Assembly (NCBI RefSeq): GCF_003073045.1
Contig: NC_037593.1
Location: forward strand, 6,253,525-6,317,524
DNA: 64,000 bases
Source: Pomacea canaliculata
Lineage: Eukaryota > Mollusca > Gastropoda > Architaenioglossa > Ampullariidae
Direction of reading: 5' to 3'
How positions within the stretch are numbered: position 1 is the stretch's first letter; each line of letters opens with the position of its first letter. The notes under the pieces were generated by a model that did not search any database, was not told the DNA's origin, and saw only the letters and a list, made by a program, of their open reading frames with translations. A program made the position numbers and the translations under genes. Shown piece by piece: positions 8,449 to 53,550 of the stretch.

Positions 8449-9138
8449 TATAAGAAATCTCTAAATATTTACATTGATGGAAATGTTGTGAATGTTGCAA
8501 CAGCATTGTATTTAGTAATTCACCAAAGAAATATGTTTCTTTACTAATTGTTGACAAAACCATTTTTTTTCAAAGATCATAATAGGCAATACACTATTGA
8601 ATTGAAACAAATGTACAGAGACCAACATTCATAAATGTATACTTTGTGTTTAACGATCTGTGTGCTCTCTTATTTTGTTATCCCACTTGAAGGCATGCAT
8701 TCTGAAAAGGAAAATTTAATGCAAAACTAATTACCTTTGATATGTTCAAGAGCAAACAACAGGCATCCTAGGCATCCACAGCCACACTTAAGTAACCAAT
8801 ATCATTTATTTCAAGATTTATTTGGATTAATTTTGAAGTGTAGTAAATAACAAAAAAATTTAAAGCAATGCTTTTTCCTCCTGGATCTATTGACTGCAAG
8901 CATTAACTGCAACAGCAGCAAAACTTGCTATGATTGCTAGCTTCAGTCCCTAACTTGGGAAACAAATTACTGTACCAGACCATGCAAATTGACAGCTTTC
9001 CATAATATTTGGTGCACCTGAAGATCTAGCCATCACATTTGTAAAAGTGATGCATTTTGTTACTTCATTCATTATAAATGAAATGTGTAAAAAACTGTTC
9101 ATGGACAATATACATTTAACTCCAGAATCCACTTCATT
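8449..9138. other. Convergent 3' UTR / intergenic space MRPL50-BCAS2
   Basis: About 690 bp between the two stop codons. On the minus strand AATAAA-type hexamers lie near 8805-8825, plausible as poly(A) signals for BCAS2. I see no further gene. Confidence 0.5.
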
Positions 9139-10772
9139 TCAATCCACGCGTCCACTGTTCAGCTTGTCCATTTTGGCATTACGTTCTTCCATGTCAGCAA
9201 TTTCCTTCTCTAGCTCAACACAAGCCCGTTCTATCTCATAGTTCTTACTGACCAGTCCTACCCACGAGGTCTCCAACTCACGTAATTTACTGCCTGCCTG
9301 AGTCTGTTCATTTTTCCGTTGCCAATTCACTTCTTGGATCTTCTTCCTCAAATCCTGATAAAATTCATAGAAAATATTTTTCACATTATCTCTTATTTTT
9401 CATTTGTGACAACTTTAAGTGCAGTTCAATAGCAAATGTAAGTAAAAAGTGAACAAGGGGAAAACACAAGAAAATACACGCTAGATGGGCGATGGTAAGT
9501 TAAGAGAAGCAACATCTAGCATGACAAATTACAAGAAAAACTAGTGTAGTCAAAATCTTGAATGTAAACAAAAAAGCAGTCCTGGGTTTTGCTATCTGGA
9601 ATATAGCTGAGGCCTTGAATCCACTAACAAGTGACTGCAGTGAATGACATCAGGAACTTTCATGCAGACAAAGCCAAGGCAACAGTGTAGGTGTTATAGC
9701 TAATATGAGCATCATTTGGCATGATAATTTCTATCCCAAGCAAACATACATCAAGTTAAAGGAAGAGAAAGCCACCAGCTACTGAAAGTATTCCTTGAAT
9801 TTGAAAATTTTAACTCTAAAAAGGTTATACTTTTGCAAAAAGATGGTGGCAAAGCATTCCAGAGAGAGTAGCAGCCAAACTTATCCCATCTGATATCTGG
9901 CAGATGAAAGTGGTATAAGCTGATCAGAAAGACAGCAAATGTGAAACAAACTTCACGACAACAAAATCAACAAAAAAAAACCCACACCTGTAGTTGCTTT
10001 TGAGCCTTCTCAATCATGGAAACCAGAATTTCATTATATGCCTTCCATCCTGGAACTCCAAAATCAGCCATCAATTCCAAGTTCAGAATCCTAAGTGCCT
10101 GATGTTCTAGCTGCGCCTGAGAATTATCTACACATTCTTGCCAGGCAGCCACATCAGTCATTTTTCCAGCTGGTGGTTGAGGCAGCTCATACCGCTTCAT
10201 ACTCAGCATCTCCATTGGAAGACGAGCCTGTTTTTGTAATGCGTAAAAGTTAAATTTAAAACAATACTCACAGCACATTTCCTTCTATACCCAAGGTTTT
10301 CACATTATTGCAATTTACAAAATCAGCAGCTTTGAGCGGTTACATTTCTTAATAAAACCTTATACTCAAAAATTCATAAAATTTACTCCTTTTTTACTTA
10401 GTGAGGAAGGTGTCCATTCAGATGCAGTTTATAAATCGCTTTTGATTTGATATGTGGAGAAAAGGTCCCTCAATGAAGTTAATGCTTTAATTAACAATTC
10501 TTCTTTCTACTTAAGAACGATCGAAATATCTATTAAATCTGAATTACACATCTTGTTATTATACTCACCTGAACGCGTTCCATTTCATTCTTCAAAATTT
10601 CTGTCTCAAATGCATGGTAGTTTGGCGCTGGCAAGTAGTCTAAGTAATTTTTAGTGGGCCTGTACCTTCTTGTTTCTTCTTCCACAAGTGCGACCGCTGC
10701 ATCGCGCACACCAGGTTCATCATAACCTTGATCGTAATAAGGTAACGCATCTACAACCACTTCGCCTGCCAT
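9139..10772 (-). CDS. BCAS2: BCAS2 / SPF27, PRP19-complex splicing factor
   Basis: Three coding exons: 10569-10772, 9988-10227 and 9139-9354, all phase 0 with GT/AG, 219 aa (human about 225). The sequence is highly conserved: [41 protein letters not shown]-like, [32 protein letters not shown] and [11 protein letters not shown], then an acidic coiled-coil C terminus. BCAS2/SPF27 is a core subunit of the PRP19 (NineTeen) complex that activates the spliceosome. The start at 10772 aligns with the human MAG..AGEVVV start. An in-frame upstream ATG (10823) would add 17 residues, but it lies within a tandem duplication and is unlikely to be used. Head-to-head with YDJC. Confidence 0.95.
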
Positions 10773-11066
10773 TTTTCTGGATCCTAGTGCTTCGTGGATT
10801 TTCTGTAACAGAAGAGTTAACAAGGGGCATCATTCAAGCTTCGTGGATTTTCTGTACCAGAAGAGTTAACAAGGGGCATCATTCAATACGGAGATCCTTG
10901 TGTTCTTGTGGTACACGGTGACAGTGCAAACCTTGGCCTTCCCCCAGCCATGTGGGATATCTTTATCTCTTTTTACATTTAGGTTGCGCTATCAGTTTTT
11001 GCATCACCTAACTTGATGACATTGGGGTTTACTTCTGCCCCTGAAGACATGTAACGCAATGTAAAG
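10773..11066. promoter_or_regulatory. Divergent promoter interval BCAS2 / YDJC
   Basis: Only 294 bp separate the two start codons, and 98 bp of that is the tandem duplication. Both promoters must sit here unless distant 5' UTR exons exist. No TATA box is evident. Called from gene geometry. Confidence 0.5.
10789..10886. repeat. 49-bp tandem duplication at the BCAS2 5' end
   Basis: Units 10789-10837 and 10838-10886 match at 48 of 49 bases (an A/C difference). They begin 16 bp upstream of the BCAS2 start codon, inside the divergent BCAS2/YDJC interval. The duplication is recent and directly lengthens the 5' leader or promoter of BCAS2. Confidence 0.9.
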
Positions 11067-14000
11067 ATGGCCAAACGACTGATCATAACAGCAGACGACA
11101 TGGGTTACAATGTTGAACGTAATCGCGGAATCATCGAGTGTTTTCAAAGAGGAGCTATTACTAACTCATCGTTGATGGTGAATGGAATAGCAGCTGCCGA
11201 TGCTGCTCATCTGGCTCTAAAATATGGCCTGCCGACGGGTAAACCTACAACACTGAGCATTTTACGCTACCTATTTTAGCTTTTCCACAAACATTTTGAA
11301 GAAGCATGCATTATTACTGGATGCTATTTATGTTGACATGCATTGTTGTGCAGTAGAAATAACCTTATTTATGTTTATGTATAGGTTTTCGTTATACTTT
11401 CATGCTGACTTTGAGTGGATTGCATTTAGATTTCTTTCAGGTTTACCGTCTCTACTAAGGCATCAAACAGACAACTACTGTAATTCTTTTCTTGCTGGTG
11501 CCTATTTTTTAACATGGGAAAGCGAACTGCATTTATGTTTCCTTTTTTTTAAGTAAACTATGATGTTAAAATTTGGATAGAAGTATATAAAAACAGACAT
11601 TCCATAGTATTCTTCAGTGGATAACAATGCAGGTGTCAAGGGTGCACAAGTTATTAACTGGCAGGGCAAAGAGGAGCATCAATCCTCTGCCCATAATTCT
11701 AAACAAGGCTTGACTAGCCTGTGTGTGAGAGAGTGTTTGTGTGTGAAAGAGAGTGTATGTCTGTGTGTGAGAGTAAGAGTGAGTGAGACTGTTCAGGCAT
11801 GTGCAGTTCTGTTTGGGGTGATTTGGGGCAATAATTAATATTTATGTGTTTCAGAAATCAGCATTAAATCTTATGTAGTAAATAAAGTATGAAGACTCCC
11901 TCTTTTGTTTGTAAATTTTGTCTGCATATTTTTCTTGCCTGGTAGCAACATATTTGTACATGAACTTCTCACAAGACAATAAATTGATAATTGTTTGTGC
12001 TTTATGCCATTGACATTTAAAAAATGTATTAACTTATTTTAAGGGCTTCATTTCAACATCACTGAGGGGGCACCAGTAAATAAATCCAACAAATACACTA
12101 CCATCACAGACAAGGAGGGATTTTTCTTAGGCAAACAAGGTCTTCGTCAAGCTGTTCTTGATAAAATAATAGACTGTCAAGAGGTCAGTATAGGGGTACT
12201 TGTAGCACATGATAGTCGCTTGAGTCGCAAGATTCTTATCCTTATATGTAGGCCTTGGATGTTGGTTAGTCTTTACTCCTTTTAGATTGTACATATTAAT
12301 TTTTAAATCCCTATTGAAAGAGATTGCAGATATTTTTATATATTTTTCTGCTGTATTTCTAATCAGGATTACATCTAAATATAACTGAAGGCATTCCGGT
12401 AAATACTGGTTCCCCTTATGAGACTCTTACCAATGAGAATGGTCATTTTCTTGGTATGCATGGTCTACCAGCAGCCGTACAAAAAAGTGTGATCAACATT
12501 GCTGAGGTCAGAGGTTGTCCTCATTCAATATGCTGCTTTCACCATATATCTACATTATTTTAATTTTTCAGTACTGTTTCTGTATAGTATGTGCCATGTA
12601 TAATATCAGTATTACTAGCACAGTCCAGTGAAGAAATATGTAGGCATGTTAATGTCTGGTTACTGCTCTGTTGCACCTAATAGACATAAGCTTATTCTGA
12701 CCATACAATGTCTACTTTAGGGGTTGGGGCCAGACTGTGGGGCACAAGGCATATGCACCAACATAATTCTTCTGTTTGATTCTGTTAACTTGAAAAACAT
12801 TGTCAATTTTCAATGGATGCTTTGGACAAATGGATAAATTTTCATATTTCTGTGTTCAATTTAGTTGACTTTCTGTCTTACATGGCTACCCAAAATGGTC
12901 ATAAGAATGATGGTTAAATAATTCACATTAAAAATGATCAAGAGGGTGATTAGATGATAAAAAGTATATCTAACCTGAAATTTTATCTCTTTTTTTCAGG
13001 TAAGAGAGGAGATGAATGCCCAGATCAAGAGATATGAGGAGTTGATTGGCAGCAAACCAGTGTATGTCGATGGTCACCAGCATGCTCATATCATTCCAGG
13101 TGAAAGAGACCATCTCAGAATGATCCTAGATTTACTCCCATGAGACTTTCTTTCTTTGCACTGTTACAATTAAATAATATGTGAATAATTTAAAATTCTG
13201 TTTAGTCATGTACAGGAGATATATCTTAATATTCTGCTACGTGGCAGGTAAAGAGTCATTGTCTGAAGATGGGTATAAATCAGTCTTTAAAAAAAATAAA
13301 TAAAAAGCAGATAATACAGTAGTCATGAAATAATTTTCTTTTGGATTTTCTTTCAAAGGTTTATCAGAAGTTTTTGCTGAAGTTCTGGAAGAGCATCATA
13401 TTCAAGCAACTCGGGTTCCTTATGAGAAAAACTTGAAGGAAGTCTCATGGCTTGGAGAACCATGGGAAAAGATTCTCTTCACATTTAGTGATGATGCTGC
13501 AAGAGCGAGGCCAATATTTAAAGCTCACAACATTTGGTAAATTTGAGTTTAGATTGTCAGAATGCTTTCTTGAAACATACATTCACATCTATGTAGATAG
13601 CAGTCAAAAATATCACATGATCAGAGAGAAAAACTGTACAACTGTTACGTCTAATTATTCTGTGCTTTATGTAATTGAAGCCAAATGCTGCAAACAGTGT
13701 GCCTCTGCTTTACTCACATATGTATAGTGATTCCCGGCCAGGACCAGGATCTGTGTGGAGTTTGCATGTACTCACTATGTGTACATGGGTACTCTTAGTT
13801 CCTCCCACGTTTGGGGGCTTTATTTAGAAGTTTTTAAGACAATGGGAATGTTTTTATGAACAGAATTCACCAGGGGTGGAATAACTTAACTTGTTTACAC
13901 ATATATATATATCAATTAGCCTTTGGTAAAATTAGTTTCATTGTCATTTTGTATAAATTTATAGTTTCCAAAAAGCTGTTGATGACACTGAGGACTTACT

Positions 14001-14599
14001 GCACCTACACACTCTCTCTTAAACTTAGCTAAAACTTGTAGTGATTGGTTGGAAAGTTTGCTTTCTTATGTCTTATATCTGCACAAACTGGTGACAAGTC
14101 TGGCTTTCATTCAAATTTGTAAAGCAAATTTGCCATAAAATAGGTTGGGGTAGGCAGTTACCTGAGTCTGGTGAGGTTAACAATCTTTAACATGAAATTA
14201 AAAATTGGATTTTTGTTTCTTTGTGACAAATTTATTGAATGAAAATTAACCAGGTTTTAACAATTTTTTTGTGGGGTGCACAGGGAATCAGACCTGTTCT
14301 TTGGACTTGCAACAATGGGATGCAATATGAGCATTGAGCGGCTTCAGACAGGTATTACAAGGGCTTTTGACTCTGTACCTAACTTAATTAACCAGACTGT
14401 CACATGTGAGCTGATGAGTCATCCAGGCTTTGCATGCCAAGGGGATGGAGGTTGTGGAGAAGGCCCAGATGACTTTTCGCAGTCATCTGACCGAGAATAT
14501 GAGAAATCTGTCCTGGAGAGTGAGGATATGGCACAATTTTACAAGAAGAATGGAATTATGCTGATGTCTTACCACCAGTGTCTGGAGTCCTTAAAATAA
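11067..14599 (+). CDS. YDJC: YdjC-family carbohydrate deacetylase (YDJC) with alternative exon 2
   Basis: Exons: 11067-11238, then either 12044-12183 (2a) or 12367-12506 (2b), then 13000-13099, 13359-13536 and 14284-14599. Either choice gives an open frame of 301 aa, close to human YDJC (about 323). Family marks are TADDMGYN near the N terminus (Asp10, Asp11), GLH.NITEG at the start of exon 2 (His60), VDGHQHAHIIP (His130, 132, 134), ELMSHPG and GGCGEGPD. YdjC proteins are metal-dependent deacetylases of acetylated sugars such as chitooligosaccharides; these Asp and His residues are the expected metal and catalytic positions. The stop codon lies within an AATAAA hexamer (14595-14600). It shares a promoter interval with BCAS2 and converges on GLE1. 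Confidence 0.93.
12044..12183 (+). CDS. YDJC: YDJC exon 2a
   Basis: A 140-bp exon, acceptor TTTTAAG at its 5' edge and donor GAG|gtcagt at its 3' edge. Entering in phase 1 it encodes 47 residues starting GLHFNITEGAPVN and ending IIDCQE. It is homologous to the next exon (12367-12506): same length, same phases, 24 of 47 residues identical without gaps. Confidence 0.88.
12367..12506 (+). CDS. YDJC: YDJC exon 2b (duplicated alternative exon)
   Basis: A 140-bp exon with acceptor TTTCTAATCAG and donor GAG|gtcaga, encoding 47 residues starting GLHLNITEGIPVN and ending VINIAE. The GLH.NITEG motif and the G.FLG..GL..AV pattern of the family are kept, so it is under coding constraint rather than decayed. 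Using 2a and 2b together would add 280 bp and shift the frame. Confidence 0.88.
13728..13835 (+). repeat. SINE/LINE-tail fragment in YDJC intron 4
   Basis: The segment GTGTGGAGTTTGCATGTACT followed by TCCTCCCAC matches a widespread retroelement core phrase. Only about 100 bp is recognisable. Family not assigned. Confidence 0.4.
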
Positions 14600-23810: not shown

Positions 23811-23859
23811 AGGAGACCACGTCGAGCTAACTACTGTACTTATGTCCTGTCGTCTCCAA

Positions 23860-24400
23860 TTAATATTCGAACAGGGTAGACATCACAACAGCACTGCCAA
23901 CTAGCCTGGCAATAAAACGTCTGTCTCACCCGACCAATACTTGCTGTAGGGTCTGAGAGCTGAGGTGAAACGACTTCTATTTGAACATACCGTCAGGGTT
24001 AGGACTGAAAATATTCTCCACAAACAAACAAAACTAGAATATATAAAGGAGAAAAGATGAACAGGCAAATGACACAAACATAGACACAACTGAATTTTAA
24101 AACTTTATTTTTATTGCTATTTTGTCTTTCTCTATATATTTCTTATCTTTCTTTCCTCATAATCGGGAATATCAACATATGGCTTGTAGCCCGTGATTAC
24201 ATGTACGGTCTATATGTGCATTCACCCAAGTTTTGACTTTTGAGTGCACACTGTAGTGGTATTATTATATTTTCCATTTGTTATGTATACTTTGTTTCTT
24301 ACACTCTGAATCTGGGAAATGACATTCTGTGTCCACCTAACGAATTCGATGTCCTTTCTACTACACCATTTTCTTACCGCTATCTCATCAGACAGACCGC
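23860..24400 (+). repeat. Unclassified repeat R, copy 1
   Basis: The segment from GGCAATAAAACGTCTGTCTC through GGTGAAACGACTTCTA, ACATACCGTCAGGGTTAGGA, AACTAGAATATATAAAGGAG and TTTGTTTCTTACACTCTGAA to about 24390 is repeated at 52195-53060 with moderate divergence. Part of it is also present inverted at 54145-54360. It has a TATA-like AATATATAAAGG but no evident coding or terminal repeats. Confidence 0.7.
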
Positions 24401-24439
24401 ACCACAAATTCAACGTGCAGTTTCTTACAGACTGCAAAA

Positions 24440-24780
24440 AGCATTAAGAGTTCAACTGTGAAGTTAAAAACAGGTTTGCGGTGCTGGAGGGACTCCTGGA
24501 AGAAACTGGCCAACATATGGACAGAATTAAAGGGGACGTGGATGTCTGCTTGCACACGCGTTCTGGGAAAGAAAGAAAAAACAACACAAGGAATGTTTTA
24601 CTTTAGGGACCTGGCAAAAGATAGAGGAAAGGAAAGAGCTGAAGTAGAAGATCAACCAAGACCAGCAGGAAAAGAGCTCAGACCCAAGTACTGGGGGATA
24701 AACCAAGAAGTGAAGAAGAGTGCAAGAGGCAAAAAGAGACAGTTCACACGCAGAATGGTTGTAGAAAACGTATTTTCTAC
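24440..24780 (+). mobile_element. LINE coding relic
   Basis: The frame contains WTELKGTWMSACTRVLGKKE and, after about 50 residues, EVKKSARGKKRQFTRRM. This resembles the linker between the endonuclease and reverse-transcriptase domains of RTE-like LINEs (K..L..AC..VLG.KK, then VKKS.R.DKR.F). The reverse transcriptase itself is not visible, so it is a short internal fragment. Confidence 0.45.
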
Positions 24781-27406: not shown

Positions 27407-49786
<22,380 letters not shown>

Positions 49787-52020
49787 CTTTAAAGTACCTA
49801 TCAAGAAAAAGGTCACTTCAAAATTACAAAATATTACATAGGAAACACATATGCATTAAACCAAAGGCAGTGACTACATTTATGTACTTCTATGCAAGCC
49901 ATTACCTTTGAAGACAATATTCTGCTTTGAACACCAAACCCTTCATCCCTGTAAGCTGTAGCATTACTTTCTCTCCCTGCATACAACCAGCTCTTGCCAA
50001 TATAACTTCACTTTGTAAACTATTGTGAAGGAAAGGTTGGCGAAAGCAATGGAGAGGTTAAGATATAAAGTTTAAACGTTAGGGTGGGGAGCCCTTTTTT
50101 TCCTCCAAGGTCATTTTGAAGTCTATAATGTCATTCACAGGCCGTCATTGGTTAAGCTTCAGTTTCGCCGAAGTGTGTCAACACTTTTGGCACAACTGTC
50201 CTTCTCTTTTAAATTAAAGATTTTGTCACTTCATTGTGAACTTGTATTTTGACCCTTTTTTTTTTTGCTACGTATAATTATATAAAGAGACATCGCTGAT
50301 TGGGTAGTCATTTAGCTTAAAGCACATCATACTACAGTAGTGCACCCTTATCATGTTTGTTTACCGTTGTAAGATACATGCAAGTAAAATGGTGGCTACA
50401 TTTATTGCCACGATTCTGCTTAAAATGGACAGCTGACCTTGCATACCTATATACCTATATTGTTCGAATAACACATGGCTCTTTAGGTAATATTTGACGT
50501 CAAGAGCTACTTGTTTCATCGATGATCAATTCACTATTGGGATTCGGGCGATTTGACTTCTCAGTCTTGGGACAAAATGGACTTACCTGGAACAAACTGG
50601 ACCTAGCTGGGATGAACTGTTTTTTGCTGAGGGGCAAAATTACCATCCCATCCCCCCTTCCAAAAACAATCTGGTGGTAAGCTATCAATAAGTCAGATAA
50701 AATAATTTTAAAAATTGTGTAATGTAGCGCACTAACGTTTGTCATCATGTATTATTTAATTTGTGATTAATATGCTCAAAAGTATTAAATTGCTCAGGAC
50801 TAAGAGCCTGTTCAACGTCCTTTTTTCAAAATCATGTTATTTTGGTCTGAGTTTTAAGCAGATGACAGCTTCACAATATAGTTTGTTAACCATCAACACT
50901 GTAAAATAGTTCTATAAGTTTTAGCCTGAGAGTTGACAAAAGTATTCAAAATTAGAGCCTAGTTAATATTAGTCTACAGCGAATTTTAATTTGCAGAAAT
51001 TCTGTAAATTTTTCTCTTTTTTGTTTTTTTTTTTTTGGGGGGGGGAGCTGGGCTATAATAAAGATTACATTTGCTGGGGTTCTATACCGCCTATAAATAA
51101 TGATGGACTATACACAGCTAAACGTAAAGGTTTTATAAACTGTTTTTAAAATACATCTTGGTTTGTATTACGTTTTTATAAAAACACAAATGCTGGAGTT
51201 TTTAAATACGCTAATGATACCCAAATTTCCAAAATTTTCAGTTTTCTTCACCATGGCGATTTAACAGGGCTTCTGCTTACGCAAAAAATTACGTACAGTA
51301 CGCATTAAAAATTCGGAGAATCCCTTCAATTTTCGTCAATGGGGTCCCCTTCAAATTTGGCCGAAGAACAGGGACCCCTTAAAAATCTGAAGAATTTGGA
51401 CCCCAAAGAATTTAGCCTTAACAGAAGCCCTGCCGATTTCATAGAACAAGCATCCCTAAAATACCTATTAGTTTTTCGGAAAAAAAATCAGAAAGCTTCT
51501 TGTAGAAAAATTTAAGCGATGCAATATCGCGCGTACACACACAATAAAGAAGGGCGAAAGGCTGAAAAAAAAACATGCAAAAAGACTTCCCACAGCCCCA
51601 CCTGGTTATGTTAGTGTCGATCAGTGAAGAAAGAAGACGAAATAGGTCAACAGCAAATAAGGATGCCCTTGTTTTTTTCATCATTTTCTCTCTCTAGCTA
51701 TAAACTTCAATTTTTTTAATTATAAAATGAGAAACAAATACAAAAATTCCCCTCAGCGTCCCATAATGCATTATCCAACGTGGCTCAGCGGCGCGAACAT
51801 CAAACTGCCACACGCTAAACTAGTTGTTCATGGTTAATAAAATGCAATGAAATCAAATATCAAACAATTGAAGAAAATATGTTTTAAATTAGGAACAAAA
51901 TCATTCTCGTACAATTTTTTTTAAAATGTGCCTCACGCTAATGCCTCTAACTCGAAGGTACCTTCTGCTTAAGTCGTTTGACAGTCGTTTGTCCAGGAAC
52001 CTCGCGTAGCAAGGGCTAAT
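49787..52020. other. Piwi upstream region
   Basis: No coding gene is recognised. A minus-strand acceptor at about 49797 implies a piwi 5' UTR exon and promoter somewhere in this interval, but I cannot place them. It contains the second family-M MITE (51265-51432). Confidence 0.4.
51265..51432. mobile_element. hAT-type MITE, family M copy 2
   Basis: 168 bp with the same inverted ends (CAGGGCTTCTGC / GCAGAAGCCCTG) and internal order as the copy at 47183. A related GATTT-type sequence is found on both flanks, but I could not define the target duplication cleanly. Confidence 0.78.
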
Positions 52021-52194: not shown

Positions 52195-53060
52195 AGGAGG
52201 GACAATAGACATCACAGGAACTACCGACGAGTCTGGCAATAAAACGTCTTCCTCACCCTTGCTGATTCTCAGGAAGCGTGCTTTAGAACAGCCTCCCTCT
52301 CCATCTCAAGCAATTGCACTCCCTGAACTGCTTTCGACGCCATCTATCTAAACACTTACAAGACATATAGATGTGGCCTCTAGAGATTCCTCCCAACTCC
52401 AGGTGACCTTGTAAATATATATTCTTAACCATCACCTTGTAAATATCCACCCTTCTTTATGCTTATTCAATTTTTTTCTATAATGCTTAATTAATTACGT
52501 TCCCTGTAAAGGGCGAGGGCTAAATGGAAAAAAGCGCTCAGTTGCTTATTTTACCCCTCGTAAATAAAGAATTGTAATTGTAATTGCTGTAGGGTCTGAG
52601 CGCTGAGGTGAAACGATTTCTAGCTGAACGGTTTCCAACTGAACATACCGTCAGGGTTAGGACTGATGCATTCTCCAAACAAAACTAGAATATATAAAGG
52701 AGAGAATGATGAACAGCGCAAATGACACAAACATAAAGACAACTGAATTTTCAAACTCCATTTTTATTGCTTTTTTTTTTTTTTTTATCTTTCTCTATAT
52801 CTTTATCTTTCTTTCTTCATAAGCGGGGATATCAATATTCGGCTTGTAGTCCGTGCTTACATGTACTATGTGTGTATTCCACCCAAATTTTGAGTGCGAC
52901 GTGCATGTACGGTAGTGTTCACACTGTAGTGGTATTATTTTAGTTTCCAGTTGTTATGTTTACTTTGTTTCTTACACTCTGAATCTGGAAAATGACAGTC
53001 GTGTCCATCTCATTAATTCGATGTCCTTTCTAATACACCATTTTCTTACCACACTCTGCA
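52195..53060 (+). repeat. Unclassified repeat R, copy 2 (interrupted)
   Basis: Parallel to copy 1 at 23860-24400 (GGCAATAAAACGTCTTCCTC, GTAGGGTCTGAG.GCTGAGGT, ACATACCGTCAGGGTTAGGA, AACTAGAATATATAAAGGAG, TTTGTTTCTTACACTCTGAA). A 319-bp retroelement tail is inserted at 52265-52583. Confidence 0.75.
52265..52583 (+). mobile_element. Truncated LINE/SINE tail inserted in repeat R
   Basis: Flanked by TTGCTG at 52259-52264 and 52584-52589. Copy 1 of repeat R has the uninterrupted site (CTTGCTGTAGGG), which defines the insertion precisely. The 3' end reads CCCCTCGTAAATAAAGAATT then GTAATTGTAA, a simple-repeat tail typical of non-LTR elements. No reverse-transcriptase coding is present. Confidence 0.75.
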
Positions 53061-53550
53061 CTTCCGTGACAGCTACTCATTATACACTTCTGGAAAGTAA
53101 TCTGTAAATACTCAATAAAATCCGAAACTGGAAGCAATTAAGAGGGCAGAGCTTGTATATACATCGCTGTTAGTTTGGCTCTGGTGGGGTCTGTTTCGGT
53201 TTGGGCAACCCAACGAAAACGAGTAAGAGAGGGAAAAAGAGCAACAGCTATAACAACAAAATATAGTTTGCAACTGAAATTCATTTAATTTATTTGCACA
53301 GTTTCAAACACCTTCCCCCTTCATCTCATTATTTACGTAACACTTCAAGGAATTCAACGTTTCTTATTGGCAGATGAAGTACAGGTATGCAAACAAAATC
53401 AATGCATGGCTGGAGGCACTGTCATACAGATTGATATATAACAAAGCAAAATCGCCAGTATAACAATGGAACCACAAAATTTAACACTGATCCTACAGTT
53501 TATATAACAGAATAACAAATATGTAAAGTGAACAAGATACAAATCCGTTA

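Follow-up and report, generated by a model that had tools for sequence, protein, structure and literature searches.

The gene YDJC lies on the plus strand of the window, by which we mean the whole 64,000-nucleotide stretch of Pomacea canaliculata DNA analysed here. The coding part of exon 1 (11067-11238) starts at an ATG with an in-frame stop just 5' of it, contributes D10 and D11, and ends in phase 1 at a GT donor. Two exons of 140 nt follow, each with AG/GT borders and an open reading frame: exon 2A (12044-12183), with H60 and the loop KSNKYTTITDKEGFFLGKQG, and exon 2B (12367-12506), with H60 and the loop TGSPYETLTNENGHFLGMHG. They are separated by an intron of 183 nt (12184-12366), in which the AG closest to the 2B acceptor lies 37 nt upstream of it. 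The remainder of the gene consists of exon 3 (13000-13099, 100 nt), with the HQHAH motif and its metal ligand H130, exon 4 (13359-13536, 178 nt), and exon 5 (14284-14599), which runs through the TAA stop codon and contains H243, a candidate for the general acid.

When exon 1 is joined through either 2A or 2B to exons 3-5, a protein of 301 residues without internal stop is obtained in each case. The Pfam YdjC profile (PF04794) matches the two isoforms with 205.5 and 205.9 bits and near full-profile coverage, the curated cut-off for a whole protein being 29.7 bits, which bears out the proposal that two complete enzymes are encoded. Scored singly, exons 2A (21.0 bits) and 2B (20.2 bits) both fall below this whole-protein cut-off. 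Four solved sequences, 7vi8, 2i5i, 8jqe and 2e67, are matched by one isoform as well as by the other. When the 440-Mb genome was searched with PF04794 at E values up to 10, five matches were returned, corresponding to YDJC exons 1, 3 and 5 and to both copies of exon 2, the latter two being weak (E 0.11 and 0.35). Because all five lie inside one gene, no second YDJC gene was found among the best candidates scored, within the sight of this whole-genome search.

Upstream of YDJC lies a divergent gene on the minus strand (approximately 9130-10772). Its sequence, as we read it, resembles that of the splicing factor BCAS2/SPF27, and the distance of about 300 bp between its start and the YDJC ATG suggests a shared promoter. 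Between the two genes, a 49-bp unit occurs twice in tandem (10789-10886, 97% matches).

The original prediction described two neighbouring exons of 140 nt with identical phases and proper splice dinucleotides, encoding ungapped homologues of 47 residues, 24 of them identical, and all of these particulars are as claimed. Both copies are entered in phase 1 and left in phase 0 with GT-AG borders, and a recount again gives 24/47 identities. The ungapped BLOSUM62 score of 2A against 2B is 122, whereas 20,000 shuffles gave a mean of -46 (sd 15) and a best value of 19. When all 1,217 stop-to-stop ORFs of the window with a length of 30 aa or more were compared with one another, 19 pairs were found at E values up to 1e-3; the 2A/2B pair ranks third (E 2.5e-14), and the two higher places, with E values of 8e-26 and 3e-22, are taken by two reading frames of a single match between approximately 47.1 and 51.3 kb. 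A third copy of exon 2 was not found by tblastn of 2A and 2B against the window, where only these two exons fall below E 0.1 and the next match, at 35.8 kb, has an E value of 0.12. A scan of viral contigs returned no relative, and one of genome contigs (with no other mollusc among them) returned one bacterial locus.

The same ORF comparison drew attention to two pairs of regions, 47084-47337 / 51218-51512 and 23843-24458 / 52541-53104, in which ORFs match in several frames with a protein likeness of about 89-93% and 56-81%, respectively. These look like dispersed repeats.

At the nucleotide level 2A and 2B are identical at 72 of 140 positions (51%), and they differ at 19, 14 and 35 of 47 first, second and third codon positions. 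Third positions look saturated; the NG86 estimate of dN is 0.51, dS is not computable by this method, and a maximum likelihood dS of 11.7 is beyond the useful range. We simulated the divergence of 2A without selection under two settings, with 2,000 runs each. Mean third-position differences of 32.8 and 35.2 were accompanied by a mean of 3.4 and 2.5 residue identities; the highest values in any run were 12 and 9, compared to 24 in the real pair, and the reading frame was still open in just 11-12% of runs. Silent saturation, together with a protein similarity far above that of the neutral simulations, therefore indicates that both copies have long been under selection at the protein level, and the duplication of exon 2 is, as judged from these comparisons, real, old and selected.

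This bears directly on the explanation that one of the copies is dying, was never used, or is an artefact of the assembly. Among GTs on the plus strand of the window, the 2A donor ranks in the top 1.6% and that of 2B in the top 3.3% (scored with a human-frequency matrix). With the same matrix the YDJC donors range from 5.3 to 7.55, that of 2B scoring 6.03, and the acceptor tract of 2A is modest by eye; the latter two would be indirect signs of a decaying copy. On the other hand, neutral runs at such divergence mostly lose the open frame and nearly all of the identity, so that we consider a dead or spurious copy very improbable. An assembly or haplotype duplicate in particular was rejected, as a DNA identity of 51% speaks against it.

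It had also been claimed that the reading frame enforces an either/or choice between the two exons. For the protein this is correct, as both or neither lead to an early stop, but the frame does not impose such a choice on splicing itself. Joint inclusion of 2A and 2B yields 107 aa and then a stop at codon 108 (DYI followed by the stop), which is the fourth codon of 2B, while skipping of both copies produces a stop at codon 70, after 69 aa. The enzyme can therefore come from single inclusion only, and it is at the level of the reading frame alone that the either/or choice is certain. The stop resulting from joint inclusion sits upstream of three further junctions, and premature stops in such a position usually send the mRNA to decay. 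The same arrangement could thus serve regulated unproductive splicing, with one working exon and the other acting as a switch whose joint inclusion introduces the stop and lowers the level of YDJC. The three junctions left downstream of that stop would suit this explanation, as would the fact that we found no physical block to joint splicing (see below). However, a poison exon need not preserve the metal ligand or as many as 24 of 47 residues, nor an open frame and the capacity to form an enzyme with an equal profile score, and we regard this role for either exon as improbable.

Exclusion of joint splicing through incompatible spliceosomes is unlikely here, because the borders of both exons look U2-type by inspection. 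In OGDH of vertebrates, a metabolic enzyme which like YDJC has two exclusive exons (4a/4b) that arose by duplication, the published account attributes steric exclusion to a branch point lying no more than about 50 nt from the upstream donor, combined with a long AG-free zone (PMC7969005). In contrast, the AG-free zone in front of exon 2B of YDJC measures 37 nt, the acceptor being preceded by AGs at distances of 37, 44, 46, 81 and 97 nt, and no distant branch point of this kind is apparent. The best branch-like A lies 116 nt from the 2A donor (a guess from the consensus rather than a mapped branch point), and in two weaker matches to CTTAT the A is 55 and 61 nt away from the donor, slightly beyond the 50-nt limit; AGs intervene between these matches and the acceptor. 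Steric hindrance, or exclusion through a distant branch point, is therefore unsupported, given an intron of 183 nt and the short AG-free zone. In sum of splice class, intron length, AG-free zone and branch-like sites, no physical block to joint 2A-2B splicing was found in the sequence.

Docking between complementary intron sequences was assessed in two ways, by the best ungapped helix against 200 shuffles, and by RNAduplex on trimmed introns against 100 shuffles. With RNAduplex, energies at or below the observed value occurred in 1/100 shuffles for intron 1 with the middle intron, in 29/100 for the middle intron with intron 3, and in 11/100 for intron 1 with intron 3; the ungapped helix was reached in 4/200, 185/200 and 37/200 shuffles for the same comparisons. 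The clearest hint of RNA docking, at best a suggestive one, is the pairing between intron 1 and the middle intron. The duplex covers 11580-11776 and takes in a GT-rich repeat (11720-11774), and the best ungapped helix (11759-11780) begins within it; because this repeat is involved, we do not lean on the result. Blastn of the flanking introns gave two 11-base matches only, neither linking the introns beside the two copies, which says little as the same search missed the exons that are 51% identical. No Rfam family matched in the window at gathering scores. When exons were included in the ungapped helix comparisons, 127/200 shuffles reached the observed value for the middle intron with 2A, 42/200 for the middle intron with 2B, and 4/200 for 2A with 2B. 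The latter value stems from a complementary stretch of 14 bases, with G-U pairs, between 12065-12078 in 2A and 12404-12417 in 2B, in one of six comparisons.

Two further donor-like sequences on the plus strand were noted in this part of the gene. Exon 3 opens with GTAAGA (13000-13005) directly after a good acceptor, and the junction formed between exons 2 and 3, GAG/GTAAGA, scores 10.17 as a donor, versus 5.3-7.55 for the five YDJC donors with the matrix used above. It resembles a recursive splice site and could, judging by this resemblance, cause exon 3 to be dropped. Within exon 2B, the sequence CCG/GTAAAT (12398/12399) scores 6.94, higher than the 2B donor itself (6.03, same human-frequency matrix). 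Splicing at this position would leave an exon of 32 nt in the same frame and without the loop.

We consider it probable that the two exons of YDJC are used in a mutually exclusive manner. Exon 2 of the snail gene would have been duplicated in tandem long ago and thereby have given rise to a pair of alternative exons, of which a protein-making mRNA would take one copy, in the order exon 1-2A-3 or exon 1-2B-3. As to how exclusivity is achieved, the most likely solution, we infer, is a choice made by splicing factors followed by decay of wrong products: the choice would be regulated by cell type or condition, and mRNAs with both copies or neither would be removed by nonsense-mediated decay. The pair has similar (in fact equal) length, the same splice class and phases, and a homologous peptide, and length, splice-site class, phase and homology are the properties by which mutually exclusive exons have been predicted (PMC3228551). 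In that study, 6 of 1,705 Drosophila X genes contained exons that had such features without being annotated as exclusive.

A close parallel is COQ2. This gene has mutually exclusive exons, 6a/6e, in helminths, annelids and molluscs. In C. elegans each of them measures 134 nt, and their choice governs ubiquinone versus rhodoquinone synthesis, both splicing and effect having been demonstrated (PMC7434440). With a COQ2 probe, we located the snail gene on the minus strand of the genome segment G000:C9:19248000-19257500, where an e-like exon of 131 nt (6719-6589) and an a-like exon of 134 nt (1125-992) are present. They are 5,463 nt apart, their lengths are both 2 mod 3, both are entered in phase 1 (by inspection), and their peptides share 24 identities over 45 aligned columns. 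In length class, phase and divergence, the YDJC exons are thus comparable to a pair that has been published. Both genes encode a conserved metabolic enzyme in which one internal exon, with a length that is not a multiple of 3, is present twofold and a segment of the enzyme core is swapped. They differ in that the COQ2 exons are far apart in this genome and one is shorter by one codon, and in that splicing is demonstrated for published COQ2 whereas the YDJC pair is known from DNA. The presence of both COQ2 exons further suggests that Pomacea canaliculata may switch quinone synthesis by splicing. A gastropod example, BgTEP2 of the snail Biomphalaria, likewise has mutually exclusive tandem exons, but these number twelve, vary in length and belong to a thioester-containing immune protein (PMC7016707), as opposed to two equal exons in an enzyme.

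What does the swap alter? The isoforms are distinguished by 23 residues, which fall within a single block and chiefly in the stretch after H60. Along exon 2, identity is 11/13 around the ligand, 3/10 in the segment that comes next, then 8/15, and 2/9 at the end. We thus confirm that the metal/active-site motif GLH.NITEG, with H60 as the shared metal ligand, is present in 2A and 2B, and that residues flanking it differ strongly, notably right after the ligand block. In ChbG of K. pneumoniae, D11, H61 and H125 hold the metal, with D10 as base and H206 as acid; no product was formed by the H61A and H206A variants, and D10A failed to express (PMC9402603). Snail D10, D11, H60, H130 and H243 are each matched by an identical residue in 7/7 bacterial homologues, H243 being the probable counterpart of H206 as judged from the shared HP(G/A) motif, and the catalytic residue set of ChbG is present in both snail isoforms. 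Family membership (PF04794; PDB 7vi8, 2i5i, 8jqe and 2e67) and catalytic residues are common to snail YDJC and the ChbG/YdjC deacetylases; a difference is that each of the seven aligned bacterial homologues has one version of the exon 2 segment, and the snail has two. The authors of the ChbG study propose that a connecting loop, alpha3/beta3, which varies in length and lies beside the groove, may set substrate choice (PMC9402603). From the length order in alignments, this loop would be the stretch after H61 and hence be encoded in exon 2. The stretch after H60 in the snail enzyme might then lie beside the groove and tune which acetylated sugar is accepted.

That the isoforms differ in substrate is nevertheless a tentative proposal, which we hold with less than even confidence. 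Two alternative exons might do the same job, the pair persisting by drift or for expression reasons, and this would agree with the nearly equal fit of the two copies to the family. However, their sequences are distinct and constrained despite silent-site saturation, and the differences are clustered, although clustering could equally stem from relaxed constraint. Functional equivalence of the two exons appears rather unlikely to us.

Comparison with relatives says little about which copy is ancestral. The seven bacterial homologues fit both isoforms about equally, within 4.3 bits, and their exon identities (13, 13, 10, 11, 13, 12 and 10 with 2A; 13, 12, 11, 11, 14, 13 and 13 with 2B) give no decision. 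Among the four solved sequences, ChbG (7vi8) favours the 2A form with 66.2 vs 59.3 bits, as do two others (43.3/41.3 and 29.5/29.0), and one favours 2B (21.1/22.4). A human YDJC segment is closer to 2A (20 vs 16 of 47 residues; 161 vs 148 bits), and as a pointer to the ancestral copy this better fit is a lead only.

Mutual exclusion of exons is in itself a familiar phenomenon, gastropods included (PMC7016707). Among the titles returned by searches of the open-access literature we found none on such exons in YDJC, and the RefSeq annotation of Pomacea canaliculata may already list both YDJC transcripts. The arrangement itself, a tandem exon duplication, is of a known kind. From the apparent age of the pair, we predict that other gastropods have it as well.

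To our knowledge, no physiological substrate of YDJC has been established in animals. It is conceivable, though we would not yet favour it, that mollusc YDJC comprises two exclusively spliced deacetylases, 2A with an ancestral-like loop and 2B with a derived loop acting on a different acetylated sugar. Isoforms that differ solely in the block after the metal ligand would constitute a natural experiment on the role of that block, and YDJC would join COQ2 as a metabolic enzyme whose active-site segment molluscs may switch by splicing. If the proposal is true, splicing would switch the substrate much as in COQ2, and the loop pair would point to the real substrate of the animal enzyme; the sugar accepted by the 2B type could then, for example, be chitin-derived, from the shell, radula, gut lining or diet.
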